A DNA stretch of 64,000 nt from Methanobacteriota archaeon (GCA_016841625.1 JAENYU010000015.1:4974-68973); one strand, 5' to 3'; positions 27,206 through 45,993 are shown, counted from the stretch's first letter. Notes: generated by a model not told the origin, from the letters alone. Made by a program: numbers and translations.

Positions 27206-28237
27206 TTAATATTTTACAAGTCCCAGATCGTTTTTTACCATCATTCGGACCAATTTTTCAAATTTTACTTTGGGAACCCATCCGAGTTTTTCTCTTGCTT
27301 TTGAAGGGTCTCCAACGAATAAGTTTGACTCGATAGGTCTGTAAAAACGGGGGTCAACTTCAACCAGAATTTCACCGTTTGAAGCATTTTTTCCCTTTTC
27401 TTTAAGCCCTTCTCCTTCCCATTCGATGTCAAAACCGGCCTCTTTGAAGGCAAATTCTACCAGCTCTCTTACAGAGTGTGTTTCACCGGTTGCAATCACG
27501 TAGTCGTCAGGTTCGTCCTGCTGCAGCATAAGCCACATAGCTTCGGCATAGTCGCCTGCAAATCCCCAATCTCTCCTTGCATTGAGGTTCCCGAGGTATA
27601 TTTTGTCCTGAAGCCCTTTTTTGATTCTGGCTGAAGCCATTGTAATCTTTCTTGTAACAAAATTCTCGGGCCTTATCGGGGACTCATGGTTAAACAGGAT
27701 GCCGTTGCAGGAAAACATTCCGTAAGCTTCGCGGTAGTTTACACAGATCCAGTGGGCATATAGCTTGGACACTGCATAAGGACTGCGGGGGTGAAAGGGA
27801 GTGTTTTCATTCTGTGGGATTTCTCTTGCATTCCCAAATAATTCTCCTGTTGAGGCCTGGAAAAATTTTGTTTTCTTTTCAAGGCCAAGGGTACGTATGG
27901 CTTCCAGAAGGTGCAGAGTACCTAAAGAGTTAATATCTGCAGTGTATTCAGGACGGTCAAAAGATGTCTGTACGTTGCTTTGAGCAGCAAGATTATAAAT
28001 TTCATCTGGACAAACTTCCTGAATAATCCTTATCATATTTGAATAATCTGTCAAGTCACTGGAATGAAAATGAAGGTTTCTGGTTTTTTGTACTTTATAT
28101 TCATCTTCCATTCTGCTATCATTTTTAGAGGCCCCTCTCTTTATCCCATGCACAACATATCCCTTATCTAATAAAAGCTCTGAGAGGTATGTCCCGTCCT
28201 GACCCGTTATGCCTGTAATCAGTGCGACCTTTGTCAA
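27206..28237 (-). CDS. gmd: GDP-mannose 4,6-dehydratase, copy 2
   Basis: This paralogue has [34 protein letters not shown] and [12 protein letters not shown]. It is clearly homologous along its full length to the gene at 26143, which it precedes by about 35 bp on the same strand, so the pair is probably an operon from an old tandem duplication. TTG 28237 (MTKVALITG) is chosen because AAGGTGG lies just upstream; TTG 28261 and GTG 28246 are alternatives. The copies could differ in substrate or one could have taken on another role. Confidence 0.92.
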
Positions 28238-28446
28238 AAAATCCACCTTATGTACTACCAATTCTTATCCGGTAAGAAGATAGAACATTTATTTTCCTTA
28301 AAAATATAACTCTTTTCCAAAAAACTTATCTTCTCAAAATATATAAAGGATTTGATCTGTTAAGGAGTCTTTGGCTTGAATGTAAGAAGATGTTTGGAAA
28401 CACATATAATAACCCAATGTAATTCTTATGTTAAATAATATACAAA

Positions 28447-29529
28447 ATGAGAAAAAGCATGAAAACGGCTATATTTCATGATTACTTCGGAGCCATTGGC
28501 GGCGGAGAGAAAGTTGTTGTCACTCTCGCCAATTTATTGGATGCAGATATTATCACCACAGACCTGGATGCCGTTGGTAAGTTGGATGCAGGGGTAAATG
28601 TGATTTCTCTTGGAAGCACGATGAAAATCCCTCCGCTAAAACAGATCTCTGCAACAGAAAAGTTTTATTATTGTGATTTTTCAGATGATTATGATTTTTT
28701 CATATTCACAGGAAACTGGAGCCATTATGCAGCCCATAATCATCACCCCAATATGTGGTACAGCTATACGCCTGTAAGGGCTTTTTATGACCTTTACGAC
28801 ACTTTTTTACAAAGACAGGATTTTATAACCCGCCAATTTTTTCGAACCTGGGTTTATGGTCACAGATGGCTGGATCAAAAATCAGTGGATAACATTGACC
28901 GTATCGTGACTCTTTCAAGTACTGTACATAGTCGGATTCAGAAGTACCATCACAGAGACGCAGAGATTATTTACCCTCCAGTTGACGTCTCAGAGTTCCG
29001 ATGTAAAGAGTATGGGGATTTCTGGCTCTCAGTAAACCGGCTTTATCCTGAAAAAAGAGTCGAATTACAGATAGAAGCATTTAGAAAAATGCCTGAAGAA
29101 AAACTCATCATTGTAGGCGGCTATGCAAAAGGGGACCATGCTGAAAAGTATGCAAAGAGTATAAGTAATGCGCTGCCCCACAACGTCGAAATAGTCGGAG
29201 AAGTTTCGGAAAAGGAGTTGATTGACCTCTATTCCAGGTGCAGAGGTTTTATTTGTACCGCCCTTGATGAAGATTTTGGACTTACCCCTGTTGAAGCAAT
29301 GGCAAGTGGAAAGCCTGTTGTTGCTGTGAACGAAGGCGGATTCAGGGAAACGGTGACCATGGAAACGGGTCTTCTTGTAAACGCAGATCTTAAAAGCATT
29401 ATAGAAGCTGTAAAACTCATTTCCCGCAAACCAGAAAGTTATAGGGATGCCTGCCTTGAACAGGCAAAGCGTTTTGATCTGTCGATTTTCAAAGAAAAAA
29501 TAAAAAATGTGGTAAATAATGATCACTAA
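28447..29529 (+). CDS. GT4 family glycosyltransferase
   Basis: The protein of 360 residues has the GT-B layout of family 4 retaining enzymes, which often use GDP-mannose. C-terminal marks are [46 protein letters not shown]. It likely adds a mannose or deoxysugar in the cytoplasm. It is divergent from gmd copy 2 and overlaps the exporter permease gene by 11 bases, so sugar transfer and export are coupled. A TATA-like AATATATAAAGG lies near 28337. Confidence 0.88.
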
Positions 29530-30298
29530 GCACCTAAATGAGCTCTATGCCTACAGGAACCTTATCTGGCAGCTGGCATGGAGTGAATTTAAACTGAGGT
29601 ATAAAAATTCGATACTGGGGTATTTCTGGTCCCTTCTGGAACCCATGCTTATGCTTACGGTTCTGTATGTAGTTTTTTCAAACCTGATGAGAGTCCAGGT
29701 AGAGTACTTCCAGCTTTTTTTGCTTCTCGGCATCATCCTCTGGAACTTTTTCAGCAGAGCAACAAGTATTGGAATGAATGCTATTGTAGGAAAAGCAAAC
29801 ATGGTAAAAAAGATCTATTTTCCAAGAGATATCTTTGTTATTTCCTCATGCATCACAGCCTTGCTCATGAGCATCTTTGAGTCTTTCATATTCATAATGT
29901 TTATGGCATTTTTCAAGGTGTCGATTTCCACCAACATAGCCTATGCGCCGCTTATTTTGTTTTTCCTGTTTGTGATCTCACTTGGCTTATCTCTTTTACT
30001 TTCAGCACTGAATGTATTTTACAGAGATGTGCAGTTCATCTGGCAGGTTGTTTTGCAGGCCGGATTTTTTGCAACCCCTATACTCTATACTCTCGACATT
30101 TTTCCTGAAAATCTGCAGAAAATTATCTTATTGAATCCCATAGCAAGAATCATCATCTCTGCAAGGGATACGATAATTTATTCGGCTCCAGCGGGAACAG
30201 AGGATCTTTTATTCATGTGTATTTCATCAATAGTTTCCCTTCTTATCGGATACCTTATTTTTTCCAGATTCGAACCCAGGTTTGCGGAGGAAATCTGA
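29519..30298 (+). CDS. Polysaccharide ABC exporter permease (Wzm/TagG type)
   Basis: The 259-residue membrane protein is the ABC-2 permease of a lipid-linked glycan exporter. It has about six membrane segments and the family start [20 protein letters not shown] followed by [11 protein letters not shown]. It overlaps the preceding glycosyltransferase by 11 bases and the ATPase gene by one base (TGATG). Together with the ATPase it would move a finished glycan across the membrane. Confidence 0.93.
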
Positions 30299-31536
30299 TG
30301 GCTGCAATTGAGGTTGAACACCTTTACAAAACATTTCGCATACCCCATGAAAAAAGAACTACTTTATTTGAAGCATTGACCGGGGTCTTCAAACCTCAGG
30401 CCTACGAAACTTTCCACGCACTTAAAGATATCAATTTTACAGTTGAAGATGGGGAAGCACTTGGAATAATTGGAGTAAACGGAAGTGGAAAGAGCACTTT
30501 ATTAAAGATCATAGCCAATGTTCTGCGCCCAACAGGGGGAAATGTGAATATTCACAGGAAAATCACCCCTTTTCTTGAGCTAGGAGTTGGTTTCCAGCCC
30601 GATCTCACAGCTGTAGAGAACGTAAAAATCTATGCAACTATCATGGGTATGCAAAAAAGAGAAATTAATGACAAACTGGATGAGATCATCGAATTTGCAG
30701 GGCTTGAAAAGTTCAGGGATACGAAACTCAAAAATTTTTCATCGGGGATGCAGGTGAGGCTTGCCTTTTCAACGGCTATTCAGACTGACCCCGAGATTCT
30801 TTTGCTGGATGAAGTGCTGGCAGTGGGAGATATGGAATTTCAGCAAAAATGCCTTGATGTCCTGAATCAGTACCAAAAGGATGGTGTCACGATTGTTTTC
30901 GTTTCACACGACCTTGGAGCCGTAAGAAGGTTCTGCGACAGGACTTTACTCCTAAATAAAGGAGAGCAGGTAGTTTTAGGGGATACAGGAGAAGTAATTG
31001 ACCGTTATGTGTATGGCGGTGGAGAAGAAGCTCCCACACCTTCTGGCAATAAGAATGAATCAACTAAAAATGAACCAGATCCTGCTGAAACAGAAGAAAA
31101 GCCTGAGAATAAAACTCCTCGGTGGGGAGACCGAACAGTCGAGATTATAAATGTGGAGTTCCACGATAAATTTGGCAATAAAGGTTCCAGATTCAACTCT
31201 TTTGATCCGATGACAATCCGGATCTTTTACCATGCACATAAAAAAATCTCCGATGCGGTATTTGGCATTGCTCTTTATTCCGAAAACGGAGAAAACCTGT
31301 TTGGCACCAATACGGAATTAAAAAACTTTGAACTTGAGACTCTTGAAGGCAAAGGGCATGTTGACCTCATGATAGAGAGAATCCCGATGATAACAGGCAG
31401 ATTTTTATTGACAGTAGCGGTGCATACCCATGACCAAAAACCGTATGATTGGCATGATAAACAGTATTCTTTTGATGTAATTCCAACCTGTAGAGATGTT
31501 GGGCTTTTTGAGGTTCCATGCAACTGGAAGATCTGA
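30298..31536 (+). CDS. Polysaccharide ABC exporter ATPase with Wzt-type C-terminal domain
   Basis: The ATPase partner of the permease. Walker A GVNGSGKST is at residues 59-67; the signature is NFSSGMQVRLAF and Walker B is ILLLDEVLAVGD. After an acidic, Pro-rich linker (PTPSGNKNESTKNEPDPAE) comes a beta-sandwich C-terminal domain from about residue 285, as in Wzt proteins that recognise the modified end of the exported glycan. ATG 30298 is chosen for GGAGG 7 bases upstream and overlap with the permease stop. The presence of the C-terminal domain predicts that the glycan is capped, which fits the methyltransferase encoded next. Confidence 0.93.
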   Translation: MAAIEVEHLYKTFRIPHEKRTTLFEALTGVFKPQAYETFHALKDINFTVEDGEALGIIGVNGSGKSTLLKIIANVLRPTGGNVNIHRKITPFLELGVGFQPDLTAVENVKIYATIMGMQKREINDKLDEIIEFAGLEKFRDTKLKNFSSGMQVRLAFSTAIQTDPEILLLDEVLAVGDMEFQQKCLDVLNQYQKDGVTIVFVSHDLGAVRRFCDRTLLLNKGEQVVLGDTGEVIDRYVYGGGEEAPTPSGNKNESTKNEPDPAETEEKPENKTPRWGDRTVEIINVEFHDKFGNKGSRFNSFDPMTIRIFYHAHKKISDAVFGIALYSENGENLFGTNTELKNFELETLEGKGHVDLMIERIPMITGRFLLTVAVHTHDQKPYDWHDKQYSFDVIPTCRDVGLFEVPCNWKI

Positions 31537-31554
31537 GTTCAGGGTGTGAGATTT

Positions 31555-33054
31555 ATGGATACTTTTGACATTAATAATGAAATTAATAAAGAAGAAATCA
31601 ACGTTGAAGAAATAATGGGAAAAATAAGGGAAAACATCCGTAAGCGGAAAGGAGCAGGGGTTTTACCAGGAAAAAATATTGGAGATCTTCAACAAGAACC
31701 TTCGCCTGAAGTACCTCCAAGTGAAAGTAAAATACAGAGAGACATTGAGTATATAAATTCAAACTGGGATATCCGGAACAATAGTTATTTCATCACTTCT
31801 CATCGTCCGGTTGTCGGGAAATTCTTGATTAGAGGTAGAGAGCTTGTTCACGGAGAAGTCAGGCGGTATGTGGATCCTATTTTCTGGAAGCAAACCGAGT
31901 TTAATGGAAGTACGGTTCGTCTTCTTAATGATACTACTGGTAAGTTAAGTTATTATAATAATAAGATCGAGCAACTAAGATCTGAAATAGATTCCAGAAT
32001 AGAACAGCTTGGACCTGAATTTGATAATAAGATCGAGCAGTTAAGGCCTGAATTTGATAATAAGATCGAGCAGCTAAGACCTGAATTTGAGGATAAGATC
32101 GAGCAGCTAAGGCCTGAATTTGATAATAAGATCGAGCAGCTAAGACCTGAATTCGAGGATAAGATCAAGCAGCTAAGACCTGAGTTCGAGGATAAGATCG
32201 AGCAGCTTAAGTCTGAAATACAGAGCAGTATAAAAGCAGAGGTAAACTCTCGAATTTCTTCAATGGAACTGGACATTGAAAATAAGGCGTGGTTGGCCAG
32301 TATACTTGATGACAAAATAGAAGGAGAGCATAAAGACAAGAAAATAGAAGCTCCTGACTCCATGGCTCTAGACATTAATTATTTCAGATTTGAAGAACAG
32401 TTCAGGGGTTCAAGAGAGGACATAAAACAGAGGCAATCTAATTTTATAAATTATTTCATTGGATGTTATAATGTCCTGGATATTGGATGTGGAAGAGGAG
32501 AATTTCTGGAATTATCAAAAGATCATGGTATTGGTGCAAAAGGTGTTGACATTGATGATACCATGGTGGACTACTGCCTTTCAAAGGGATTAAATGTGGT
32601 GAAAGACGAAGCGATTTCGTATCTCGAAAAGCTTGATGATAAAAGTCTCGATGGAATTTTTATCGACCAGGTGGTTGAACATCTGGAACCTGATTACTTG
32701 ATTAAGCTGCTTGCATTATGTTACCAAAAACTGAAATATAGTCACTATATTGTTATCGAGACCGTGAATCCTCTTTCCCTGTTTTCTTTTGCTAACTTCT
32801 ATATTGACCTGACTCATACTAAACCGGTACATCCAGAAACTCTTAAATTCTTACTTAATTCCTCAGGCTTCAGGGATTCAGACACCAAGTTTATTTCGCC
32901 TGTTCCGGAACATTCTAGATTAAAACAAATACCAATTCACAATGAAATGCAAGATATCTCAATTTCATTTATAGAAACATATAATCAAAATATTGATATG
33001 CTAAACAATGTGTTATATGGGCCTCAAGATTATGCAGTGATCGGGAAAAAATAA
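31555..33054 (+). CDS. Repeat-containing SAM-dependent methyltransferase, possible glycan chain terminator
   Basis: The N terminus has INVEEIMGKIRENIRKRK, a motif common in methyltransferases of bacterial polysaccharide clusters. Residues about 137-224 are eight 11-residue repeats of DNKIEQLRPEF type, predicted helical. The C-terminal half is a class I methyltransferase with VLDIGCGRGEFLEL near residue 306 and GVDIDD following. It directly follows Wzm and Wzt genes. By analogy with WbdD, which caps O-antigen and whose coiled coil measures chain length, it may methylate the glycan end recognised by the Wzt domain. The Pro in each repeat is unusual for a coiled coil. GTG 31546 is an alternative start. 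Confidence 0.8.
   Translation: MDTFDINNEINKEEINVEEIMGKIRENIRKRKGAGVLPGKNIGDLQQEPSPEVPPSESKIQRDIEYINSNWDIRNNSYFITSHRPVVGKFLIRGRELVHGEVRRYVDPIFWKQTEFNGSTVRLLNDTTGKLSYYNNKIEQLRSEIDSRIEQLGPEFDNKIEQLRPEFDNKIEQLRPEFEDKIEQLRPEFDNKIEQLRPEFEDKIKQLRPEFEDKIEQLKSEIQSSIKAEVNSRISSMELDIENKAWLASILDDKIEGEHKDKKIEAPDSMALDINYFRFEEQFRGSREDIKQRQSNFINYFIGCYNVLDIGCGRGEFLELSKDHGIGAKGVDIDDTMVDYCLSKGLNVVKDEAISYLEKLDDKSLDGIFIDQVVEHLEPDYLIKLLALCYQKLKYSHYIVIETVNPLSLFSFANFYIDLTHTKPVHPETLKFLLNSSGFRDSDTKFISPVPEHSRLKQIPIHNEMQDISISFIETYNQNIDMLNNVLYGPQDYAVIGKK
31960..32223. repeat. 33-bp in-frame tandem repeat in the methyltransferase gene
   Basis: Eight 33-bp units encode KIEQLRPEF-type hendecads. The central five are nearly identical, which indicates recent expansion. 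Each gain or loss changes the predicted rod by 11 residues without shifting the frame. Confidence 0.9.
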
Positions 33055-33121
33055 ATTGATGCAAACTACTTTTTAATTATTTGTAAATAACTTTATATTA
33101 TTTATACTTCAGTTATTATTT

Positions 33122-33321
33122 TGTAACTATTCAGCTACCCTAAAATGAGCCGGATGATTCCGATTTTGACTATTCGGAATACTCAAATTAGGGGTTCATG
33201 CCAAAAGCAAAAACGGCCTCAATTGACATCAGTGTATAAAATAAACTTAAGTATATTGCACATAATAAATCACCTAAATTACGGCTCTTGATGTTGATTA
33301 GTGGGTAGCTGAATAGTTACA
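33122..33321. mobile_element. 200-bp element with 19-bp perfect inverted ends
   Basis: TGTAACTATTCAGCTACCC (33122-33140) returns as its exact reverse complement at 33303-33321. The flanks TTATTATTT and TTATTTTTT agree at 8 of 9 bases, compatible with a target duplication. No transposase is inside. Its right end forms the last codons of the minus-strand glycosyltransferase gene, so it may have changed that protein's C terminus. Confidence 0.6.
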
Positions 33322-35036
33322 TTATTTTTTGATAAAATTTCAGAATAAACGTTTACTACCTTCTTTGTTACAATATCCCAAGTGTAGTTCTCAATGACTT
33401 TTTTTAGCCCACGTTCTCCAAATTTTAGGGCCAATTTTTCATCTTTCAATATAATCTCAACGTTTTTAATTATTTCTTCTACGTTACTGCATAAAAATCC
33501 GTCTATGCCGTTATCAATAAGATTTGAAACTGCTCCACAATAAATATTTCCAATAACTGGCTTTTTTCTAGCCCACGCTTCACAAAACACCATCCCAAAA
33601 CTTTCACTTTCTGACATCATGGCAAAGACGGTACATGCATCATAAGCGTTTAGCAGATCTTCTTGAGAAACTTTACCCAGATACGAAACATTTTCGGAGT
33701 TAATTGGGACTTTGTCATCATCTGGACCTATCATCACCAGATGTGCATTTTTGAAATCCCTGTTAATTTCTTTTATTGCGTCTATTAATAAATCATATCT
33801 CTTACTTTGATTTTTTCTTGATACTGTAAGTATTATATCCTTTCCCTCAAGGTTGTATTTTGTTTTGAATGCAATTCCATCAACATTTTCAGTGAAAAAA
33901 TAATCTTTATTTATGCCAGACCCTACAAATTTACTTTTTACCCCAATTCTGTCAAAAAATTCCTTTTTTGAATAATTAGAAATTGCAAGTACCATATCTG
34001 CTTTTTTTAGAATCTCGTAGTAATGTTTCCAGTGATAAAATTCATCATCAATATGCATTAAAGGCAATAAAATTAAAGGTATATTGTGTTTTTTTGCAAC
34101 AAGCGAATACTTAAGTGTATTAAAAGGGAGCATTTGAGCTATAATCATATCATAATTAGAAACATTACTTTCCAACCATCGAAGCATTTTAGGGGATTTC
34201 GGACCTCTTAAATAATCAAATAATACACCGTAGATTTTGCTTCTTTTATTTGCACTGGCTTCAAAGTGTTCGATAAATAGTCCATTTTTAATTAACAATT
34301 TTTTATAATCAATTTCTAAATCAATCAACTTTTCATATTTCTTTGTTTTATATGTGATCTCCGAAACTCCAATTCCAAGAGACCTGAAATCTTTTAGTGG
34401 TCTCCAGCATCTACTTAAATTGATTGAAACATATAATTCGCCCGAAATATTTGGCACATCAAACCTAAAAAGCTTCCAATTTGTATCTTTCGGTAAAGGG
34501 AACCTTTTTTCGTAAGTTGATGAACTGAAAACGATTTCTCCATTTATCCGTTTTTTATTTTGGAACGTAATAGCTACTTCTTCAATATCTTCATCTTTTA
34601 TCAGTAAGATTGGATTTTTTCTTGTCCATCTCATTGAAAAATTATCATATCTTTCCAACTGGTTCCAGCCAGTTAGCAGAACTCCATTTTTGTCCTCTAA
34701 GTATTTCTCCCCTATATCGAGTAACCTATTCGTTGCAAGTTTTTCTTCCTTCTCAAGCTCAAATTGTATAATTTTTTCAAAAATAAGAGCAATATATTTA
34801 TTTGGGTTTTTCACGGGAAACCGATGGACATCAATGTCATTAATTTTTTCATCTCTTAGATTGTTATCCCAGATTTCACCGGATTTTATTAATGGTCTTA
34901 AATTGTGTGTTTTGGTTGTGCAAACGTCTACTTCAGCACCGAATCTACGCATTTCTTCTGCAAGTTCTCGAAAATAAGATTCTGCGCCTCCATATACATC
35001 TTGTCCATATCTAAATGTAACACACAATACTTTCAT
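33279..35036 (-). CDS. GT4 glycosyltransferase with inserted accessory domain
   Basis: At 585 residues this enzyme is about 200 longer than a usual GT4. The N-terminal GT-B part starts YGGAESYFRELAEEMRRFGAEV. Residues about 115-222 are an insertion (GWNQLERYDN, MRWTRKNP, FRSLGIGVSEI) that resembles domains in the proteins at 35074 and 38560. The rest resumes GT4 sequence, with VSRKNQSKRYDLLIDAI, MSESESFGMVFCEAWARKKP. The C terminus lies in the 200-bp inverted-repeat element. The gene is AT-rich and divergent from the next glycosyltransferase. Confidence 0.85.
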   Translation of the reverse strand: MKVLCVTFRYGQDVYGGAESYFRELAEEMRRFGAEVDVCTTKTHNLRPLIKSGEIWDNNLRDEKINDIDVHRFPVKNPNKYIALIFEKIIQFELEKEEKLATNRLLDIGEKYLEDKNGVLLTGWNQLERYDNFSMRWTRKNPILLIKDEDIEEVAITFQNKKRINGEIVFSSSTYEKRFPLPKDTNWKLFRFDVPNISGELYVSINLSRCWRPLKDFRSLGIGVSEITYKTKKYEKLIDLEIDYKKLLIKNGLFIEHFEASANKRSKIYGVLFDYLRGPKSPKMLRWLESNVSNYDMIIAQMLPFNTLKYSLVAKKHNIPLILLPLMHIDDEFYHWKHYYEILKKADMVLAISNYSKKEFFDRIGVKSKFVGSGINKDYFFTENVDGIAFKTKYNLEGKDIILTVSRKNQSKRYDLLIDAIKEINRDFKNAHLVMIGPDDDKVPINSENVSYLGKVSQEDLLNAYDACTVFAMMSESESFGMVFCEAWARKKPVIGNIYCGAVSNLIDNGIDGFLCSNVEEIIKNVEIILKDEKLALKFGERGLKKVIENYTWDIVTKKVVNVYSEILSKNNVTIQLPTNQHQEP

Positions 35037-35073
35037 AGTGAGTTCTTATATGATATGAAACATACTTAAATCT

Positions 35074-36687
35074 ATGTTGTCCCTAATGGCTTTAAGCTTT
35101 CATCCGGCGTTTTTTCCTCCAAGAAGTGGAGGAGAAGAGAGATTGTATAACATTTATAATTATTTATCTAAATATTATAAAATCAAGTTGATCAGTTTTA
35201 CATACTTCAACAGCAAAAATCTTATCGAAACAGTAAACCATAACGAAAATTTTAAAGAAATTAGAATCCCCAAGACAAAAATAAGTGCTATTCTTCATCA
35301 TTTAATTGACAGGTACACCAACATAAAAGAATGTTCAGCAGTAATTACATCTATTGAAAGTATATTTAATAAAAATTTCAGGGAAACGATTAGAACAGAG
35401 ATTCAAGATGTGGATATGCTCATTTTTGTATCTCCTTTTTTATATACCATTCCAAGAGCCGCTATGAATGGGAAAAAAGTTATTTATGAATCTTATAACG
35501 TCGAATATGAGCTGATGGAATATTCATTATCGGGATCATTAATTGGGAAACAATTACTAAAATATATATTTTATTTAGAAGAGTCTTTAATTAAGAAAAG
35601 CGATTATATTTTTACTGTTTCAGAAGAGGACAGAATTAAACTTGCTAAACTATATAATTTTGATATTAGTAAGGTTTATGTTTCACCCAATGGTGTAAAT
35701 TCAGAAAAATATGATAGTATAGCCGAGGGAAACACTTTCCCCAACAATTCCAATATATGCTTATTTATTGGGAGTTATCATCCTCCAAACATTGAGGCAA
35801 TAGAGAGTATTACAATGTTTGCTTCTAATATGCCAGATACTCAATTTCTCATCGCGGGGAGTGCATCCCAATATTACATCAATTCTGGTTCTGATCTAGT
35901 CGAAAACGCAGATAAAATCTACAAAACTCCCGATTTTAAAAAATTGAGTTTAGTTGATGGTTTTTATAATATAGAGTATTGGAATTCGCTTCCTACTTTA
36001 TGGTGCAAACCTCGGTTTGAAATAAGTGTCTCAAAAGATGTTGATTCTCTCGAATTAAAGGTTTACTCTCCATATGTACAAAGTCTTAAGGTAAAGACAG
36101 ATCAAGAAATAATGTCTTTTGACTTGAAAGAAGATTGGAACTTGATTGAAATCAAAAAGGACTCCAGTAAAAATCAAAATCTTTCTTTTTTCTGCCAAAA
36201 AAAGATAGAAAAAGCAGAACGAATCTTAGGTATAGCAATCCAGGAAATCAACTACTATGAAGGAAACATAGCGGTTAATTTTGATTTAAAGCAAGGATCT
36301 AATCAAGTATTTGCATTTAATAATGCAAAGAACGTGATATTACTGGGACAAATCAGTGATGAAGAAAAATTAGAATTATATAAGGTAGCCGATATTGCTC
36401 TAAATCCTATGATGAGTGGTTCAGGAACTAATATTAAAATGCTGGATTACATGGCAGCTGGATTACCGATAATTTCGACTCAAGTAGGTTCAAGAGGATT
36501 GAATTTGGAGAATTATAGTGACGTTATTATATGTAATATCTCTGAGTTTCCTACAAAAATTAAACAAGTTCTTCACGATAGAGAACTATATGCAAGAATT
36601 AGTCGTAATGGTCACAAGTTAGTTAAAGAAAAATATGATTGGCAAAAAATTGTGGATGATATGAAAGAAGTATTGGAGGAGAAATGA
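35074..36687 (+). CDS. GT4 glycosyltransferase with accessory domain inserted in the C-terminal lobe
   Basis: The 537-residue protein is close to its 399-residue neighbour but carries an extra 100 residues at about 293-390 (DGFYNIEYWN, LWCKPRFEIS, RILGIAIQEINYY). GT4 sequence then resumes with QISDEEKLELYKVADIALNP and SGTNIKMLDYMAAGLP. The insertion is of the same kind as in the proteins at 33279 and 38560. The gene overlaps the next by 4 bases (ATGA). The acceptor and donor are unknown; GT4 enzymes in such loci usually use nucleotide-activated hexoses. Confidence 0.85.
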   Translation: MLSLMALSFHPAFFPPRSGGEERLYNIYNYLSKYYKIKLISFTYFNSKNLIETVNHNENFKEIRIPKTKISAILHHLIDRYTNIKECSAVITSIESIFNKNFRETIRTEIQDVDMLIFVSPFLYTIPRAAMNGKKVIYESYNVEYELMEYSLSGSLIGKQLLKYIFYLEESLIKKSDYIFTVSEEDRIKLAKLYNFDISKVYVSPNGVNSEKYDSIAEGNTFPNNSNICLFIGSYHPPNIEAIESITMFASNMPDTQFLIAGSASQYYINSGSDLVENADKIYKTPDFKKLSLVDGFYNIEYWNSLPTLWCKPRFEISVSKDVDSLELKVYSPYVQSLKVKTDQEIMSFDLKEDWNLIEIKKDSSKNQNLSFFCQKKIEKAERILGIAIQEINYYEGNIAVNFDLKQGSNQVFAFNNAKNVILLGQISDEEKLELYKVADIALNPMMSGSGTNIKMLDYMAAGLPIISTQVGSRGLNLENYSDVIICNISEFPTKIKQVLHDRELYARISRNGHKLVKEKYDWQKIVDDMKEVLEEK

Positions 36688-37883
36688 GAAACATTGTTGT
36701 GCTAAATGATTTTCAAATATGCCCCGCCAATCATGGAGGAAAAATAAGAATATATAATGTTTATAAAAATTTATCTAGGAAATATAATGTAACATATATA
36801 TGTTTTGGAGAATCAAAAAATATCGAAAAGAAACAAATTAATGAAAACTTTGTAGAAGTTAGTGTCCCAAAAGGTATTTTTCACAAAAATATTGAAAAAA
36901 CTGCAGGGAAATTCTTAGGCATATCCATTGATGATATTATCGCAATGTTTTTTTGTAAATATAATCAACAATTAATATCTACTGCTAAAAACTGTTTTTC
37001 AGATTGTGATATTGTAGTCGCATCACTACCTTATATGTATCCAGCTATAGAGAAATGTGTCAATAAAGATACATTTTTGGTTTACGAATCGCAGAACGTA
37101 GAATTTTTATTGAAAAAGTCTTTGCTTGGGAAAAGTTTTGTAGGGAATTTACTGTGCAAATATGTAAAAAAAATAGAAGGTGAAGTTGTTTCAAAATCAG
37201 ATATTGTATTTGCGATAACAAACGAAGATCGAAATGAAATACAAAATATTTACAACAGAGATCCAAGCAAAATGTACATTTCTCCTAATGGTGTTGATCT
37301 CAGTCAATTTGAAACGCTTTATACCGGGAATGATCTAATAAATGAAAAAATAATAGAAAAACCAATCATCATTTTTTTGGGAAGTGGGCACCCCCCAAAC
37401 GTAGAAGCAGCCAAGAATATTATTGAGAATATTGCACCTCAAAAAGAAGACTTTTATTTTTTGATCTGTGGGAGTGTTTGTTGGAGCTTAAACAGGGAAA
37501 AAATAGGCAAAAACGTGGGTTTAGCTTTTATGGTCAGTGAAGAAGAAAAATTAGAGTTGTATCGAGTATCGGATGTTGCTATAAACCCTATGCTGAGAGG
37601 CTCAGGTACAAATATCAAAATGTTAGATTACATGGCAGCTGGGTTGCCGGTTATCTCTACACCCGTCGGTGCAAGAGGGTTAAATTTAGAAAATGGTACT
37701 AATGCAATAATTTGCGATATGAGCGAATTTGCAATAAAAATTGAACAAGTTCTCCAGAACGAGGAGTTGTATTCAAAACTTAGCAATGGCGGACGAAGGA
37801 TAGTCAACGAAAAATATGATTGGGATATAATAGTAGAAGATATGGAAAATGAATTCGAGAAAAACTTAATGGAATTTGAATAA
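36684..37883 (+). CDS. GT4 glycosyltransferase
   Basis: A standard-length GT4 of 399 residues, paralogous to the upstream protein: both have SPNGV, EEEKLELYRVSD-type and SGTNIKMLDYMAAGLPVIST motifs. It lacks the inserted domain, which makes the limits of that insertion clear. It overlaps the upstream gene as ATGA and follows GGAGG, so the two are cotranslated. Strongly AT-rich codon use. Confidence 0.88.
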   Translation: MRNIVVLNDFQICPANHGGKIRIYNVYKNLSRKYNVTYICFGESKNIEKKQINENFVEVSVPKGIFHKNIEKTAGKFLGISIDDIIAMFFCKYNQQLISTAKNCFSDCDIVVASLPYMYPAIEKCVNKDTFLVYESQNVEFLLKKSLLGKSFVGNLLCKYVKKIEGEVVSKSDIVFAITNEDRNEIQNIYNRDPSKMYISPNGVDLSQFETLYTGNDLINEKIIEKPIIIFLGSGHPPNVEAAKNIIENIAPQKEDFYFLICGSVCWSLNREKIGKNVGLAFMVSEEEKLELYRVSDVAINPMLRGSGTNIKMLDYMAAGLPVISTPVGARGLNLENGTNAIICDMSEFAIKIEQVLQNEELYSKLSNGGRRIVNEKYDWDIIVEDMENEFEKNLMEFE

Positions 37884-37917
37884 TCCCTGTAAAACTCTTG
37901 TTGTTCCTTAGTTCTAT

Positions 37918-38558
37918 CTGACTTTCCGCAGATGTCTGATAAATTAATTCATTTTTCCCACTAATGTATAAATACAGTACTTCACCAATTGACTTGAATT
38001 ATCAGCAGCTATTCCCGTTTTAACAATAAACGTATGCAAGCGAAGGTTTAATATTTTTATATTTCGTAATCATTTTATTTATACTGATTTCTTCTATTTG
38101 AGGAGCCTCGGAAAAGTGCATGATTATCCAAATTTTGACTCATTTTTTCATCGTTAATAAATTTAATAATTTTACATGATGCTGATTTGTGGAGTTGAGT
38201 TCAATGACTGTGTGAGGTTAGTTACAGATTCCAGACCTTTCCGACGCTCTCACTTACAAGAAAAAACAACAACTACTGGCCTTATAATTTCAAACTTTCC
38301 GGATGTGAGATGATAAAATAAGGGGATAGTTCCTGTAAATTCCTTTCATCTATCAGTCACTTTCTAAAGAAATTGACGATGTAATTCATTTTATTCTTTG
38401 CAGTCAATATACAAAATGTGCCTCATGAGTTGTATTCTGTAAATGGTGACAGTGCAATAAAATGATCGCGGAATATTAAAAAATTTAACCGCCTCACGAA
38501 TGCGTTTTTGCCTAAAACGGGAATAGCTGCTTTTGAGTGGAGATCTGCGGAAAGTCAG
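37918..38558. mobile_element. Degenerate element with nested inverted repeats
   Basis: CTGACTTTCCGCAGAT (37918-37933) matches ATCTGCGGAAAGTCAG (38543-38558). Inside these, GCAGCTATTCCCGTTTTA (38005-38022) matches its reverse complement at 38513-38530, and similarity continues inward imperfectly for about 40 more bases. The inner sequence has no intact transposase and I see no clear gene between 37884 and 38559. It looks like the relic of an insertion sequence whose left arm gained about 60 bases. Confidence 0.6.
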
Positions 38559-38559
38559 C

Positions 38560-40650
38560 TTATGACTCAAAATCAATATTTTGGAAAGCCAGACTCAAGC
38601 ATCTCCTGTCATCTGAATCTTCAATGTCAGATGGTTTCAAGCAACCTTCTGGAACATGGAATCTCATTAGATTTATTCCTTCCTCGAGAGAGATGTTTGT
38701 TTCAATAGCACCGGGTTGTGTAGAAATAGGCTCTGCATATTCCAATTCCTCATTATTATAGATTTCAAGTGTTCTCGGTATATAATAACTCATTGCTTCA
38801 AAATTAATAGGTAGATCTCGATTTTCTTTTGAATACATTAAGATAGTCGCATTATTAGAGATCCAACGACTTGAAATCCCATCCCAATTTTCGACAGTAT
38901 ACCAATTCTCCAAAAAGAAAACGGACAAGTTAGTTTGTTTTGAGGATACATCTTTCAAGGTGATGACTAAATCATTTGGTGATGAGGTCCGTATTGCATA
39001 AACAAAGTACCTTTTGTCAACATAAGCTGGTTTAAGATCCTTTATGGCTAGGGCACTTATCTCATTCTTGTTGAGATCTATAGAATTTTTGCTACTTCCA
39101 ACGGATATATGAGCATCCATGTCACTATTCTTTGAGTTTAATATTACCAATAAAGTTTCGATTTCATTTTTGGATTTCAGAACCATATCAGCAGAACCAC
39201 TGACTGTAAAGGCACCTCCCGATTCTTTGCTTTTATCATCTAACCTGTATACTAACATATCATCAATTTTGTGACTATTATACCAGAAAGGAAGGTTATT
39301 CAATTGAGTATATTCAAGTGGTAGGTATGAGTATGGAATGCTGGTCTGGTGGCTTGAAGGATTAATTGAATTCCCAATTGGATCTAAAATAATTGGATTC
39401 AATGTAAGAACAGCTATTGAAATAACTAATAATACATTTTTCAGGTCGATTTTTCTGATTAAATAAATAAATGCCGGATAAATATAAAAATACCTATTTC
39501 CTACGGCGTGTTGCCCTCCCAAATAGTTATTTCCGATAATTGTACAGAAAAAAACAATATATAAAATAATTCCTGTAAATATTAAGATTTTATCTGCATT
39601 TGAACTTATGTAATTATTAAAATTTGATTTTGGAGAAGCTTTTGAATCATTAGATAGAGATGTAAAAACAGAAATTAATGCAAATAACGTGAAAGGATAG
39701 TACCAAAACATCCCTGTAAATCTTCCAAAAATGTAATAAAACAGATTGTATGGAATGACTTTAAGATTATCCTCATTCATCAACGCATCCAGACGATTTT
39801 CAGACACACTAAAAGCCGGTTTTCCAGCTTCATTGATGTTGTCATATCCTTCAACAAATGGATACGAATGTATATAATATAGCCTATCTCCTCCGTAAAA
39901 AGATAGACTTCCTGTATTTAGGAAAAAATATCCATATATAGTAATTACAGGAAGCATGAATATAAAAAGCATCATAAAAGAATTCTTAAACCTCTTGTTA
40001 TGTAATTCATAAAATAACATCGGAATAAACAAGAGGATATTCGGTACTTTTGCTACAAAAGCGAGCCCAAAAACAAATGATGCTATAAAAAGATATTTTG
40101 GATTCTTATTTTTGAAATATCTCTCCCATAAAAATAAGCTAGCCATTATGAGGAACATGTTATAAATTTCTGCATGTATCCAAAAAATGTAAACAAAAGC
40201 AGTGGACATTGTAAAATATAACACCGATACACTCAGTGCAATTTTGTTTTCATTTTCAGTTCTTAAATAAAGATAACCCATTAGGATCATCATAAAAAAC
40301 ATTAATCCATTAAAAAACAGAATTCCATTCTTTCCTAATATTTTATAGAAAGGAGAAGCAAACAAAGCATAGGAAAACTCTTTCCCATAATAATAATTCC
40401 CTTCTTCAGTTTTTATTAAAAAGAGACCCGATGGAAAATCATCAAATTGAGTTTCAAGTGCTCGCTCAATATCTTTTGATTGATACTGTATGTCAAAGTC
40501 ATTTGATATACTCTGTATCTGCATGTAATATGTAGAAGCATCTCCCCAACGATGAACAGGGGCAGCCATTGATGCACATGATAAGAATAATAAAAGTAAC
40601 ATAAGTATAATATTAATATTTAGACGGTCAGATTTTCCAAAAATCTTCAA
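38560..40650 (-). CDS. Multi-spanning membrane protein with C-terminal accessory domain (probable GT-C glycosyltransferase)
   Basis: The 696-residue protein has one N-terminal membrane segment, an extracytoplasmic part with HRWGDASTYYM, and about ten further membrane segments up to residue 440. The Asp after the first segment and the overall layout recall GT-C enzymes of the PMT/ArnT kind that use polyprenyl-phosphate sugars, but I see no decisive motif. The C-terminal domain (about 577-690: NWYTVENWDGISSRW, RCLSLAFQNI) is the accessory domain also seen inserted in two GT4 enzymes nearby. The stop lies at the edge of the degenerate inverted-repeat element. Confidence 0.75.
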   Translation of the reverse strand: MKIFGKSDRLNINIILMLLLLFLSCASMAAPVHRWGDASTYYMQIQSISNDFDIQYQSKDIERALETQFDDFPSGLFLIKTEEGNYYYGKEFSYALFASPFYKILGKNGILFFNGLMFFMMILMGYLYLRTENENKIALSVSVLYFTMSTAFVYIFWIHAEIYNMFLIMASLFLWERYFKNKNPKYLFIASFVFGLAFVAKVPNILLFIPMLFYELHNKRFKNSFMMLFIFMLPVITIYGYFFLNTGSLSFYGGDRLYYIHSYPFVEGYDNINEAGKPAFSVSENRLDALMNEDNLKVIPYNLFYYIFGRFTGMFWYYPFTLFALISVFTSLSNDSKASPKSNFNNYISSNADKILIFTGIILYIVFFCTIIGNNYLGGQHAVGNRYFYIYPAFIYLIRKIDLKNVLLVISIAVLTLNPIILDPIGNSINPSSHQTSIPYSYLPLEYTQLNNLPFWYNSHKIDDMLVYRLDDKSKESGGAFTVSGSADMVLKSKNEIETLLVILNSKNSDMDAHISVGSSKNSIDLNKNEISALAIKDLKPAYVDKRYFVYAIRTSSPNDLVITLKDVSSKQTNLSVFFLENWYTVENWDGISSRWISNNATILMYSKENRDLPINFEAMSYYIPRTLEIYNNEELEYAEPISTQPGAIETNISLEEGINLMRFHVPEGCLKPSDIEDSDDRRCLSLAFQNIDFES

Positions 40651-41347
40651 TTTTTTTGTAGCACTCTTGTATGAAATAGGACTGCCTCCTCGTCAATAGA
40701 ATTATTTTTTAGACAGAAACGTTTTTACATATATAAAATGTTTCTATTAAGTGTACTTATTTTATTACTTTGTATCCTCTTTAAATTTATGGGAGAATTT
40801 TCATTTGTATTCGGTTAAGGAATCTGTTAACGTTGAGATGACTACTACAATCATCTACTCACCTCGATTTTCATTTATAGGTTACAGAAATTGCAATGAA
40901 AATAACACGTTTCTTACAGATCGTATCTTAACCGAATACGAATGGGAGAATTTTCCAACTAGAAAATAGTACAACAATTTTGGTAACTATTCATGTTTTA
41001 GAAGTATGGTCAATGATAGCGAAAAATCATTCATGTAAGCAAATTTCCAACATTTGTATTTTGTTATAGACCTTCCTTGCTGGCGATATCGCTACAAATT
41101 AGAAAGATTGCAATGTATGCCTTTACTTAAAGATGTAGTCAAATGATAACACTTCTAAAACCGGAGTAGTTAGTAATTTAGTTAGACATTTATGGAGTTA
41201 ATCCTGCATCTTGAGTTTGTTTCTCAAACTTGGGGAAATTCTTAAATATTCAGCACATGTGTGAAATTTACCTGTTTCCATACAATTTGAAGAGGATACA
41301 TTACTTTAAATAAATAGGAACCTGTCACTGTCGTAGAGGATCTAAAA
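40651..41347. other. AT-rich gene-free stretch with small inverted-repeat element
   Basis: No gene is supported in these 700 bases. They contain the 141-bp element at 40803-40943, a GCGATATCGC palindrome near 41082, and a AGTTTG/CAAACT hairpin near 41215. A GTAACTATTCA at 40983-40993 matches part of the 33122 inverted repeat, possibly a fragment. Confidence 0.5.
40803..40943. mobile_element. 141-bp MITE-like element with target duplication
   Basis: ATTTGTATTCGGTTAAG (40803-40819) and CTTAACCGAATACGAAT (40927-40943) form 17-bp inverted ends with one mismatch. The flanks GGGAGAATTTTC (40791-40802 and 40944-40955) are a perfect 12-bp direct repeat; the two preceding bases AT also match, so the duplication is 12 to 14 bases. 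No protein of interest is inside. The transposon family is not identified; duplications this long are seen in some IS4-group elements. Confidence 0.8.
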
Positions 41348-42331
41348 ATGAATCCAAAATCAATTATAAAATTATTAACAATCTGCATAACAATATTGCT
41401 TGTTTTAATATTGTTTTCACAGATAAAATTAAGCGATATTGTTTACACACTTACAGTATTAAATTATTTTCATCTCCTCTTCGCATTTATACTGTACTCC
41501 TGCAGTTATTTTTTCAGGACTTTAAGATTTTACATTTTATTAGATAAAAAAGTGAGTCTAAAAGATTTGTTCCACATAGTCTGCGTCCATAACATGGCAA
41601 ATAATATTTTTCCAGCAAGAACTGGTGAATTATCATATGTATATCTTTTAAACAAAGTGCACAATAAGCAGACTGGAGAAGGGATCGCCTCACTGGCGGT
41701 TGCGCGTGTTTTGGATTTATTTATAATTTTAATTATGTTTTTTATTTCCCTTTATTTTGTAGAATTTTTGTCTTCTTCAGTTTCAAAAATAATTTGGATC
41801 GCTGCTTCTTTCATGATAATTTTGATTGTTTTTTTTGCATTATCTCTTTATTTTGGAACTTATATTTCCCTTTTTACAAGGAATATTTTCATTGGATTAA
41901 AAATAGACAGGATCAATGTAATTATTTTTTTATTAAATAAAGTAGATGAAGTGATAGAAAGTATTCAAGCTATAAAATCTTTCAAAAAAACTGCATTCCT
42001 CGAGCTAATTATAGCTTCTTTTGGCATCTGGCTTTCAATGTATTCTTTCAATTTCCTTCTAGTGAGTGCTATGAACATTGATCTCGATTTCCTTTCGGTA
42101 ATATTTGCCACATCTTTTGCGATATTTACGACCGTGTTGCCAATTCAAGGAGTGGGGGGATTTGGGACATTGGAGGGAGGGTGGACTGTTGGGTTTATTA
42201 CCGTTGGTTTAGCAAGTGATCTAGCAATCAGTTCTGGGTTTATTTATCACACGATAATATGGATTTATTTCTTAATTTTAGGAGCATGGGGGACGTTAAT
42301 GCTGAAAAGGAATGAACCAAAAGAAGTTTGA
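41348..42331 (+). CDS. Flippase-like membrane protein (LPG synthase TM / UPF0104 family)
   Basis: The 327-residue protein has about eight membrane segments. RTLRFYILLDKKVS, NNIFPARTGELSYVYLL and the late GVGGFGTLEGG are hallmarks of the lysylphosphatidylglycerol-synthase membrane domain, which occurs alone in many archaeal glycan loci, including AglD-like proteins. It may take part in lipid-linked sugar handling or flipping. GAGG lies 8 bases before the ATG. Exact role unknown. Confidence 0.85.
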   Translation: MNPKSIIKLLTICITILLVLILFSQIKLSDIVYTLTVLNYFHLLFAFILYSCSYFFRTLRFYILLDKKVSLKDLFHIVCVHNMANNIFPARTGELSYVYLLNKVHNKQTGEGIASLAVARVLDLFIILIMFFISLYFVEFLSSSVSKIIWIAASFMIILIVFFALSLYFGTYISLFTRNIFIGLKIDRINVIIFLLNKVDEVIESIQAIKSFKKTAFLELIIASFGIWLSMYSFNFLLVSAMNIDLDFLSVIFATSFAIFTTVLPIQGVGGFGTLEGGWTVGFITVGLASDLAISSGFIYHTIIWIYFLILGAWGTLMLKRNEPKEV

Positions 42332-42789
42332 AATTATTTTTCATTCCCCATATTACATATAAATCATTAGGACAGGACATCTTGGCATTCATTTCAAGAT
42401 TTAATTTTTTTTCTGTCAGAAGATCTTTACCATTTTTCTACAAAGTTTAATTTTCGACATTGAACGTTTTGTACCTCTTTTTCCCATGACCTTACAAAAT
42501 ATAATTTATGTTCATTGGTCATCGGTTAAGAATTTTCTTGCCTGAAAGCTATCGATTTTGTAGCAGAAGCCTGCCTTAAATTTTGGCCTCTTTACATGAA
42601 ATCGATACTTTATTCCAGTCCACAATATGTTGAAATTTTAGACAACTGTTGTATAAATGGAGGAAATTTGTCACGATTCCCCATTCCGAAGACACATGAA
42701 TTTATGTTATATAATGTCATCCAAATACAAATTGGACATCAATCGCTTTAAAAATGGTTTAAACAAATTTTTTTGGCAAATAATTTTTA
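42332..42789. other. Gene-free AT-rich stretch, possible gene relic
   Basis: No intact gene is supported. One stretch (about 42548-42750) reads AIDFVAEACLKFWPLYMKSI and on for 60 codons without a start and may be a relic. TCGGTTAAG near 42523 matches the end of the 141-bp element. Confidence 0.35.
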
Positions 42790-43896
42790 TTATTCAATAT
42801 TATTGGAAGATAAGGGATTGTGTGAAAAATGGCAAAACCTCAAATCATTAAATTTGGTTTGAATGTAATGACACCCTACAACAAATAACGGGATAAATAT
42901 GAAAATAATTATTATGTCCAATAGAATTCCAGATGCATGTAGAGAATTTACTAAGAAATGCTTCAAACAATAAAGGATTGGAACGTGGAATAGGTATATG
43001 GTGTAAGATGAAAATGAAACGTATCTACATAAATAATAAACCTTTGGCTTAATTAACTCGGCAATAGAAAATATATGATTATAAGTCAGTAGAGTAAATG
43101 AAAAAAGAAGAATTCCCATATTTAATATAACAATAATTGGATTTATATTCTGGTCGTTAAATATATACTCTTTCGAGTCAAATTTTGTAACTTTTAAGTG
43201 CATAATTATAGATCCAAAAAACAAAAGAGGCATATAAGCAATCATTTTCTTATAATTGTCATTTTCAAACAAATTTAGCGATCTGATAAATATTCCACTC
43301 ATAAATAATGGTAAATATAAAAAAACCCTGACTTCAATGATGTTAAAAAGATACCTTATAATAAACAGTCCCAGTACAACAAAAAGACAGTTTAAAAATA
43401 GTTTCTGACCAGTCTTCGAATAATATATTATGAATGGATATATTAAATAAAACAAAATAATCATCCCAATGTACCACAATCCCCAATATGAGATCTGTAC
43501 ATAATTAGGGGCTAAGATGATTTGGGTGCCAAATATGTATTCAATAACAGTCAAAATATTGAAATTTTTAGTGGGGATTAATTTGAAAAAGTCAAATATG
43601 AGAATATGGATCAAAAGAGCTACCCAATAAAGTTGAAATATGCGCAATAACCTTTTTTTATAAAAACCAAGAATATCGTGTGAATCTTTAATTTCACTGT
43701 TATTGTAATATAACGAGTATCCTGATATAAAAACAAAAAGACCTAATCCGAACCTTCCAATGTAAGGTTGGAATAAAATGAAATAGTCATGGCTTGAATA
43801 ATAACACAAATGGTGAATAAGGATTAATAATATTGCAATTGTTTTGATTATATCAATCTCATATAATCTTTTTTTCAAAGATTTCAGCTCCGACAT
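42790..43896 (-). CDS. Acyltransferase family 3 membrane protein
   Basis: The 368-residue protein has about ten membrane segments. It begins IDIIKTIAILLILIHHLCYY, with the His characteristic of acyltransferase-3 enzymes, then GRFGLGLFVFISGYSLYY. These enzymes add acetyl or other acyl groups to sugars at the membrane. It probably decorates the glycan made here. It is strongly AT-rich. Confidence 0.88.
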   Translation of the reverse strand: MSELKSLKKRLYEIDIIKTIAILLILIHHLCYYSSHDYFILFQPYIGRFGLGLFVFISGYSLYYNNSEIKDSHDILGFYKKRLLRIFQLYWVALLIHILIFDFFKLIPTKNFNILTVIEYIFGTQIILAPNYVQISYWGLWYIGMIILFYLIYPFIIYYSKTGQKLFLNCLFVVLGLFIIRYLFNIIEVRVFLYLPLFMSGIFIRSLNLFENDNYKKMIAYMPLLFFGSIIMHLKVTKFDSKEYIFNDQNINPIIVILNMGILLFSFTLLTYNHIFSIAELIKPKVYYLCRYVSFSSYTIYLFHVPILYCLKHFLVNSLHASGILLDIIIIFIFIPLFVVGCHYIQTKFNDLRFCHFSHNPLSSNNIE

Positions 43897-44038
43897 ATAA
43901 ATGGAAACAGTTTTCCTTCAAAAGACACTGTTTTAAGTGATTCAAATTTCCTATTTGATTAAAGCTTAGTGAAATTATTCAATCTGAATTTAAATCAAAA
44001 TATTATATCCCAGATAAACAAAATTCCCTGTATTTTTT

Positions 44039-44764
44039 TTATTTTTTCTTACATACAGCAATCAAAGAAAGACCAATTGGGAAATGTATGTTGTTTTCGA
44101 TGACTGAAAACCACCTATTTAGCAACTGTAGAGATAAAGTGGATTTATTGCTATATCTAAATCCTTCATTTATTTTTTTATGTAGTATCTTTTCAGAAAT
44201 AAAGACAGGTATGAATCCCAGAAAATTCCAGTGTCTGATTTCTGTGATCTCCAAACCAGAATTTTCAATTAATTTGACAAAATCCGCTTTATTGTATCTT
44301 CTGTAATGCCCTATTTCCCTGTCTCTTTGGCCATACAAAAAACTAAAAGCAGGAACTGATATTATGAGGTTTGCATCATTTTTGAGTGTGTATACCAAAT
44401 TGCTAAGTGCTAATTGATCATCATCTATATGTTCAAGAACATCAAGGCAAATAATTGTATCATGTCTGTTTTCACCAAGTGATTTAACTTCCAGTAAATT
44501 CATGGTGTAAATATAAGCCTTTTGATTATTTTGTTTAAGGATCTTTTTCGTAAAGGAAGTTAATTTTTCGGAACAATCAATTGCTGTTACTTTATATCCT
44601 TCGTTGCAAAGACTTAAAGTCATATGACCAGTGCCACAACCCGCGTCCAGCACACACTCCCCAATAACATATCTTTTGACAAGTTTTCGCAAATTTTCCC
44701 ATCTGAAATCTTTTTTCCCGGATTCATGAATCTTTTCTAGATGGTCAATTATTTTGGAATCCAT
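44039..44764 (-). CDS. Class I SAM-dependent methyltransferase
   Basis: A 241-residue methyltransferase with VLDAGCGTGHMTLSL (motif I), IICLDVLEHIDDD and REIGHYRRYNKADFVKLIE, a combination common in methyltransferases next to GT2 enzymes. The substrate could be a sugar or lipid-linked intermediate. ATG 44764 follows GGTGA by 5 bases. It lies downstream of the DPM1-like gene at 44832 with a 67-bp gap, so they are probably cotranscribed. Confidence 0.85.
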   Translation of the reverse strand: MDSKIIDHLEKIHESGKKDFRWENLRKLVKRYVIGECVLDAGCGTGHMTLSLCNEGYKVTAIDCSEKLTSFTKKILKQNNQKAYIYTMNLLEVKSLGENRHDTIICLDVLEHIDDDQLALSNLVYTLKNDANLIISVPAFSFLYGQRDREIGHYRRYNKADFVKLIENSGLEITEIRHWNFLGFIPVFISEKILHKKINEGFRYSNKSTLSLQLLNRWFSVIENNIHFPIGLSLIAVCKKK

Positions 44765-44831
44765 TAAATTCACCTATATTTTAATAATTATTCATCAAGT
44801 TACGGTGGAAATAATTCTAGGAGTCACTTTT

Positions 44832-45773
44832 TTAATAATTAGTGTCCAGTTCATAGCTATCGTACTTTATAATATAATCATCATTATTTCTGTCGTTTGT
44901 GATCAGTTCTCCTATTAACCCTAAGGAAATAAATTGCACCCCTATTACCATGAATAATATCCCCAGCATGAGTAGAGGTCGATCTCCTATTGTTGTACCC
45001 ATAATCCATAATGAGAGTAAGTACATACAAATAACAGTTCCAGAAAGTCCAAATGTGAAACCTATTCCTCCAAAAACGTGCAAAGGTCTCTTTTTGTACA
45101 TCATCAGAAATGTGACTGTAATCAGATCCAGGAATCCTTTCAGAAGCCTTTCAATCCCGTATTTTGATTTTCCGTGAATTCTGGGATGGTGCTCAACTTT
45201 AATTTCCCCTACAGTGTACCCTTTCCAGTGGGCAAGAGCCGGAATATAGCGGTGAAACTCCCCATATACACTTATATTTTTTACAACGTAATTCCTGTAA
45301 GCCTTGTACCCACAGTTAAAGTCATTAATGTTGACACCTGTCAGGAATCGGGTTAATTTATTAAAGAATTTTGAAGGCAGAGTTTTCGAGATGGGATCAT
45401 GCCTTTCAAACTTCCAGCCGGAAACCATATCATATTCATTTAATTTTTCAAGGAATCTGGGGATTTCTTTTGGGTCATCCTGCAGGTCCCCGTCCATTGT
45501 GATAACCATATCCCCTTCAGCTTTCTTAAACCCACATGATAGAGCCGCAGCCTTTCCACAATTCCTCTGGAACTGTACTATTTTAACTCTTTCATCTTTG
45601 ATTTTTTTAATTTCTTCAAAGGTATTATCTGTTGACCCGTCATCAATGAATATTATTTCATATGTTTTGTTCAATTGTAAAAGATTACCACTTAGTTCGT
45701 TGTATAATTCAAAGACATTTTCTCCTTCATTGTAAACTGGGATTATAATTGAGAGGCTCGGTTTATTGGACAT
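44832..45773 (-). CDS. GT2 glycosyltransferase, polyprenyl-phosphate sugar synthase type
   Basis: The 313-residue protein has the DPM1/GtrB layout: SIIIPVYNEGENV, IIFIDDGSTDNTFEEI, MDGDLQDDPKEIPRF, FNCGYKAYRN, then two C-terminal membrane segments. Such enzymes load a sugar onto dolichyl phosphate on the inner face for use by GT-C enzymes outside, such as the candidate at 38560. GAGG lies upstream of the ATG. Confidence 0.92.
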   Translation of the reverse strand: MSNKPSLSIIIPVYNEGENVFELYNELSGNLLQLNKTYEIIFIDDGSTDNTFEEIKKIKDERVKIVQFQRNCGKAAALSCGFKKAEGDMVITMDGDLQDDPKEIPRFLEKLNEYDMVSGWKFERHDPISKTLPSKFFNKLTRFLTGVNINDFNCGYKAYRNYVVKNISVYGEFHRYIPALAHWKGYTVGEIKVEHHPRIHGKSKYGIERLLKGFLDLITVTFLMMYKKRPLHVFGGIGFTFGLSGTVICMYLLSLWIMGTTIGDRPLLMLGILFMVIGVQFISLGLIGELITNDRNNDDYIIKYDSYELDTNY

Positions 45774-45993
45774 TTACGTTTCCTCTGGATTGGAATATCT
45801 TGTTCTGGAAGCAGGCTTGAGCTTTTAGGACATAAGCTTCTCTAATTTTTCATTTAATCTTTGAACTAGATCCAGAAATCTCACCACAACTTCGTGAAAC
45901 ATCAGAACTAATTTAATATGAATTATATCATTTTTACAAAAATATCTGTTATCTGTCTGAATTAGGCATACATATTTTTTTTCATTTGTTCAG

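Follow-up and report, generated by a model that had tools for sequence, protein, structure and literature searches.

Three proteins of one archaeal glycan locus carry homologous copies of an accessory domain with a predicted resemblance to carbohydrate-binding modules

Why would three enzymes of one glycan locus carry what appears to be the same extra piece of protein, each at a different position? The question is raised by a window of 64,000 nucleotides from a Methanobacteriota archaeon (GCA_016841625.1, JAENYU010000015.1:4974-68973), in which a sequence-only reading had noticed that three predicted proteins encoded between positions 33279 and 40650 share a pattern of motifs, in a segment that splits the N-terminal lobe of one protein, splits the C-terminal lobe of another and is appended to the third. 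We refer to these proteins as A, B and C. A (33279..35036, minus strand, 585 amino acids) and B (35074..36687, plus strand, 537 amino acids) are glycosyltransferases of the GT4 type with a Glycos_transf_1 / Glyco_trans_1_4 domain above the Pfam cut-off, and a hydrophobicity scan indicates that both are soluble and without membrane segments. C (38560..40650, minus strand, 696 amino acids) is a membrane protein of the PMT_2 / LA_3751 (GT-C) type, which scores 33.5 bits with Pfam PMT_2 (cut-off 26.1) and stays below the cut-off of NCBIfam LA3751_2_3. The open reading frames (ORFs) are as that reading described them, its segment limits are close to ours, and the shared motif is present in the form G-[WF]-[YNH]-x2-[E], then (R)W, then (D)xR-x-[LGI/LSL]. 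The copy in A covers residues ~112-249 (34290..34703, minus strand; conserved E128, W137, R218 and L220), that in B residues ~290-414 (35941..36315, plus strand; E301, W310, R383 and L385), and that in C residues ~574-696 (38563..38931, minus strand; E587, W596, R683 and L685), which form the extreme C terminus of the protein.

Profile comparisons confirm the homology of the three segments, which are collinear copies of a single domain of ~110-130 amino acids. In a first round of profile-profile comparison, with A and B families of three sequences each, probabilities of 95.4% for A-C (E 1.7e-8) and 98.4% for B-C (E 7.5e-15) were obtained, together with only 38% for A-B, the one result that would fit three unrelated beta-rich inserts sharing a motif by chance. 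With extended families, hhalign gives 96.5% for A-B (E 7.2e-10), 96.8% for A-C and 98.2% for B-C, and each of these alignments runs collinearly along almost the whole domain, whereas reversed-alignment decoys reach 4.9% at most; these E-values are those of single comparisons or small sets, not of database searches. In a set of 857 six-frame ORFs, a profile of the C family only also picks out the A and B proteins, with E-values from 2e-5 to 1.4e-3, and its best reversed-ORF decoy stands at E 0.03. Since the A and B copies are also predicted to fold alike, we give the chance explanation almost no weight, and the profile comparisons with their decoys rule it out. E, W and R are invariant across 20 family members, with G, D and L nearly so. 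No Pfam or NCBIfam model covers any of the three segments, and the domain is an accessory domain without a family model of its own. Genome searches with single segments return hardly anything other than the query. Against plasmids, tblastn gives two short unrelated matches or none for A and for the family consensus, and the consensus has no match in viral contigs.

The fold of the A and B copies was predicted with AlphaFold2 from alignments of 19 rows (A) and 17 rows (B). Both models are of high confidence, with a predicted local distance difference test (pLDDT) of 95.9 and a predicted template modelling score (pTM) of 0.88 for A, and a pLDDT of 94.2 and a pTM of 0.87 for B. They are all-beta with a short C-terminal helix and are predicted to be jelly-roll beta-sandwiches; compared through strand order, which is similar, and shared PDB neighbours rather than by superposition, the two models are alike. 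For C, we infer the same fold from its 98.2% match to B, so that the earlier expectation of one beta-sandwich in all three holds for the A and B models and, through this match, extends to C. The PDB neighbours of the A and B models found by Foldseek are largely carbohydrate-binding modules (CBMs) of the families CBM6 and CBM35 and other CBM-type modules. Neighbours common to both models include CBM6 (1uy1, 1uy2), CBM35 (2w87, 2w46, 2w1w, 2w3j), BT0996-C (7zvo), 8x8h, MtGlu5 (7vt8) and the N-terminal sandwich of CE2 esterases (2wab, 2wao). Against CBM6 and CBM35 chains the VIA Z scores are 7-9, with a maximum of 9.0, at a root-mean-square deviation of ~3 A over ~100 residues. In sequence, the best PDB match is the CBM35 module 2w3j, at E 0.002 with a broad profile that includes bacterial members and at E 0.15 with a narrower one; a single-sequence PDB search with the A segment gives no match, and the domain matches none of the Pfam CBM models. 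The domain thus resembles CBM6 and CBM35 modules in its predicted jelly-roll, and they are among the top PDB neighbours, but the sequence link is weak, and the listed modules are mostly found on secreted sugar-degrading enzymes whereas the domain here sits on biosynthetic ones.

In B, 169 residues lie between FLIAGS and NVILLG in the C-terminal lobe, whereas the uninterrupted GT4 paralogue of B encoded directly downstream (36684..37883, plus strand) has in alignment a loop of 25 residues between FLICGS and NVGLAF at the same site. The claim that this paralogue reveals the insertion point of B is therefore borne out, and with the profile comparison of all pairs and the A and B models, the description of one domain in three positions holds. 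The insert of A lies in the N-terminal half, upstream of a conserved FDYLRGP segment. Relatives of A with the same insert occur in other archaea and in bacterial contigs, and all full-length A-type proteins examined, those of bacteria among them, keep the insert, down to 26-29% identity. Bacterial B orthologues have no insert. In one archaeal genome, G461 (locus L087), A has the domain, B has only a loop of 76 residues at the insertion site, and C is represented by an orthologue of 48% identity that ends directly before the domain. In a GT4 tree calculated without the insert columns, the B protein of G461 stands beside insert-bearing B proteins, in a region of mixed support, and this position suggests that it has lost the domain.

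We also searched for the domain elsewhere. In the genome under study three copies were found, all at this locus. At E<=1e-4, 36 of the 200 genomes sampled from the class contain relatives of the C segment, and clear relatives of the A segment occur in two genomes of the class sample (G033 and G057), each with a C-type match within 4 kb. In the phylum sample, the domain is present in 38 of 393 genomes, many of which yield just one copy. The recognisable hosts are mostly enzymes of glycan pathways, and among bacteria and archaea the domain turns up on many glycan-building proteins that are not related to one another. For example, it ends S-adenosylmethionine (SAM) methyltransferases (L043, L046, L094, L095 and L108) as well as B12-radical-SAM and SPASM radical-SAM proteins (L054, L048 and L088). 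Many GT-C-type proteins end in it, often with tandem copies, a DUF2079 membrane protein (L090) has two copies, and on a Sumerlaeota contig (L105) one Wzt protein carries Wzt_C and then the domain, in tandem. We also observed a GT-C-type protein of 1015 amino acids with three tandem copies, the first divergent (L044, 6965-10009). At L050 (7053-8078, minus strand) two partial copies stand back to back, the C-terminal part before the N-terminal part, next to an ORF that has two complete copies, and this partial pair represents decay or rearrangement.

A relation to a described family emerged with DUF7024 (PF22895), which forms the C terminus of Escherichia coli OpgB. With a small DUF7024 set, hhalign gives 93.5% for the C family and 94.8% for the set of methyltransferase, radical-SAM and Wzt copies, nearly over the full length, and in direct comparison 73% for A and 35% for B. 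Both share the signature GxxxxE...RW...DxRxLGI and a C-terminal position on glycan enzymes and GT39-type membrane proteins: DUF7024 itself is the C terminus of the glucan-modifying OpgB and of a GT39 protein beside a gene for an ABC-transporter ATPase, and the DUF7024 model and the domain model both match one protein of bacterial origin (L107, 10644-12860). DUF7024 differs in that it is not known as an insert in GT-B enzymes and in that the window copies miss its Pfam model (cut-off 24.4 bits), which has no match even at E<=1 among the window proteins and sets of 20 and 15 domain members. Nor did this genome and 19 related ones yield a DUF7024 match at E<=0.01. We therefore treat DUF7024 as a remote relative, a branch of the same superfamily as judged from sequence, and not as the family of the window copies. 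In a tree of the domain, which like all inferences from it depends on short sequences, the A copies, the methyltransferase, radical-SAM and Wzt copies and DUF7024 are separated from the B and C copies with 77/99 support. Because A and B/C fall on different branches, the domain probably reached the locus at least twice, and the B copy may derive from a C-like source. Neither the domain nor DUF7024 was found described in the titles, abstracts and passages that our literature searches covered. A DUF7024-like domain behind an apparently SGNH-type sequence was also seen, without an annotated gene, at 582-926 of a 6.2 kb plasmid record labelled Shigella flexneri (L123, NZ_CP055027.1), whose label or assembly may be doubtful.

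The hosts at this locus recur as a set in other methanogens. A, B, the paralogue and a membrane protein that carries the domain are grouped in this genome and likewise in Methanosarcina sp. MSH10X1 (G033/L041/L101), in a Methanotrichaceae metagenome-assembled genome (MAG; G057/L042/L104) and in a MAG labelled Methanoregula (G467/L086/L103); in the cassettes outside this genome, the likeness of the membrane protein to C is limited to the domain. A, B and the paralogue are also present on the BL5 contig (L102). In genome G097 (L043), C is kept at 68% identity and adjoined by a domain-carrying methyltransferase, and other genes replace A and B. In two bacterial contigs, B, the paralogue and A are fused as one polypeptide, of 1873 amino acids in Nitrospiraceae and 1364 in Betaproteobacteria, and because of this fusion the three probably act together. 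In the Nitrospiraceae protein, from a MAG (L106, 6613-12231), three GT4 units, B-like, paralogue-like and A-like, the last with the domain inserted, are followed by FkbM-type methyltransferase domains.

The locus further contains genes for a Wzm-like ABC-2 type permease (29519..30298, plus strand, read from its translation), a Wzt-like ATPase with a Wzt_C domain (30217..31536, plus strand; Pfam ABC_tran and Wzt_C, E 2.7e-31) and a MetW-like methyltransferase (31546..33054, plus strand; Pfam MetW, E 1.9e-12). This set resembles the terminator and transporter set of ABC-transporter-dependent O-polysaccharide systems (PMC11231755), with the methyltransferase resembling a chain terminator. It is preceded in its translation by near-identical, coiled-coil-like repeats of ~11 residues (EQLRPEFDNKI), for which a coiled-coil molecular ruler is possible. 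Two similar GDP-mannose 4,6-dehydratase-like genes lie side by side at 26143-28261 (minus strand). The GC content is 0.29-0.40 in the glycan locus (28001-46000) and about 0.42-0.54 elsewhere in the window, and the domain was not found in the three genomes of the same genus; on these two grounds the locus looks like an acquired island. In C, a simple scan finds eight hydrophobic segments, the last ending at ~residue 425, with positive charge on the preceding side, so that the C-terminal part with the domain copy is predicted to lie outside the membrane.

Several glycan-enzyme domains invite comparison. In DUF1975 enzymes (GtfA/GtfB, TarM, SdgA/SdgB), a beta-domain of ten antiparallel strands is inserted in the acceptor-binding lobe of the GT-B fold and mediates the formation of dimers or trimers, and that of SdgB also binds acceptor and product, before and after catalysis (PMC8561734). 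The likeness is a beta-stranded domain inside a GT-B lobe; placement in the acceptor-binding, N-terminal lobe is common to A only, since B is interrupted in its C-terminal lobe and C carries its copy appended. The DUF1975 Pfam model has no match among the window proteins and domain members at E<=1. We know of no report of a DUF1975 add-on in a C-terminal lobe, on membrane proteins or on methyltransferases. In ABC-dependent O-polysaccharide systems, Wzt recognises the completed chain through CBM domains (PMC11231755). Wzt_C (PF14524) likewise reads glycans and belongs to loci of this kind (PMC11231755), and common ancestry with it was rejected at hhalign probabilities of 0.1-0.3%. A CBM is also seen in the AlphaFold model of the Klebsiella O7 terminator ORF6, again an O-polysaccharide biosynthetic enzyme, and its authors found CBMs in no other terminator; that module is set apart by its description as immunoglobulin-like (PMC11231755).

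By analogy with the CBM on Wzt and the inserted beta-domain of SdgB, we consider it reasonably probable that the domain is a CBM-like jelly-roll serving as a glycan-binding module on the biosynthetic side, most likely for the growing glycan. Placed on the enzymes of a surface polysaccharide pathway that depends on an ABC transporter, it would hold the chain as it grows. On the cytoplasmic A and B it would provide a second, non-catalytic site for acceptor or product beside the catalytic cleft, and on C a site at the outer face for exported or lipid-linked glycan. By keeping the chain near the active site, it may raise processivity or chain selectivity. All copies would see the same glycan, and catalysis would be affected in this way. 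The sugar-binding role suggested by the sequence-only reading is in this sense indirectly supported, by the CBM6/35-like fold and the glycan-locus hosts. The scaffold role that it named as the other possibility is less likely, as A and B are soluble, with no membrane segments, and the C copy is predicted outside the membrane; for the same reason a common glycan is likelier than a common protein partner. Several points weigh against glycan binding. Z scores of 8-9 are modest, barely above the background of 7-8 quoted for the tool with models lacking a clear match, and the neighbour lists also include ephrin-receptor and reelin domains and toxin receptor-binding domains. Jelly-roll beta-sandwiches serve in protein interaction too. 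The most conserved residues, E, W and R, could be structural, and the radical-SAM hosts are not proven glycan enzymes. Moreover, the B and C orthologues of G461 lack the domain, and therefore it is not needed for catalysis as such.

These points leave room for a module of protein docking or oligomerisation, like the DUF1975 insert, that builds one enzyme complex. The multimers formed through DUF1975 inserts speak for it, though the SdgB insert binds acceptor as well (PMC8561734), as do the copies on several proteins of one locus and the joint occurrence and bacterial fusion of A, B and the paralogue. We regard it as unlikely nevertheless, since mutual docking of all copies is impossible if C bears its copy across the membrane from A and B, the hosts are many and unrelated, many genomes have a single copy, and the structural neighbours are mainly CBMs. 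It is more doubtful still that the domain is a ligand-free decoration that stabilises the fold and was spread by gene shuffling in glycan loci. The patchy occurrence in G461 and the bacterial B orthologues without insert would agree with such a decoration, but its retention in every A-type enzyme examined, even at 26-29% identity, the near-invariant E/W/R/L signature over two domains of life and the recurrence on many unrelated hosts do not.

With glycan binding as the preferred explanation, we tentatively propose, with less than even confidence, that the domain represents an undescribed superfamily of biosynthesis-side CBMs in archaea and bacteria, with DUF7024 as one branch. Within a pathway, such modules would have been built into the lobes of glycosyltransferases and attached to methyltransferases, radical-SAM proteins, exporters and membrane transferases, and they would let one enzyme after another, inside and outside the membrane, recognise the same glycan as it grows. 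A natural comparison is at hand in G461, whose cassette has the domain in A and not in B or C. Apart from a few O-antigen models, it is still largely an open question how the separate enzymes of surface-polysaccharide synthesis locate and keep hold of the same growing chain. If the proposal is true, polymerising transferases, a Wzt exporter, methyltransferases and a membrane transferase would share one portable CBM-like module as their recognition element. Its sequence would mark such loci in archaea as well as in bacteria, and it would give access to DUF7024 and to the so far unexplained OpgB C terminus.

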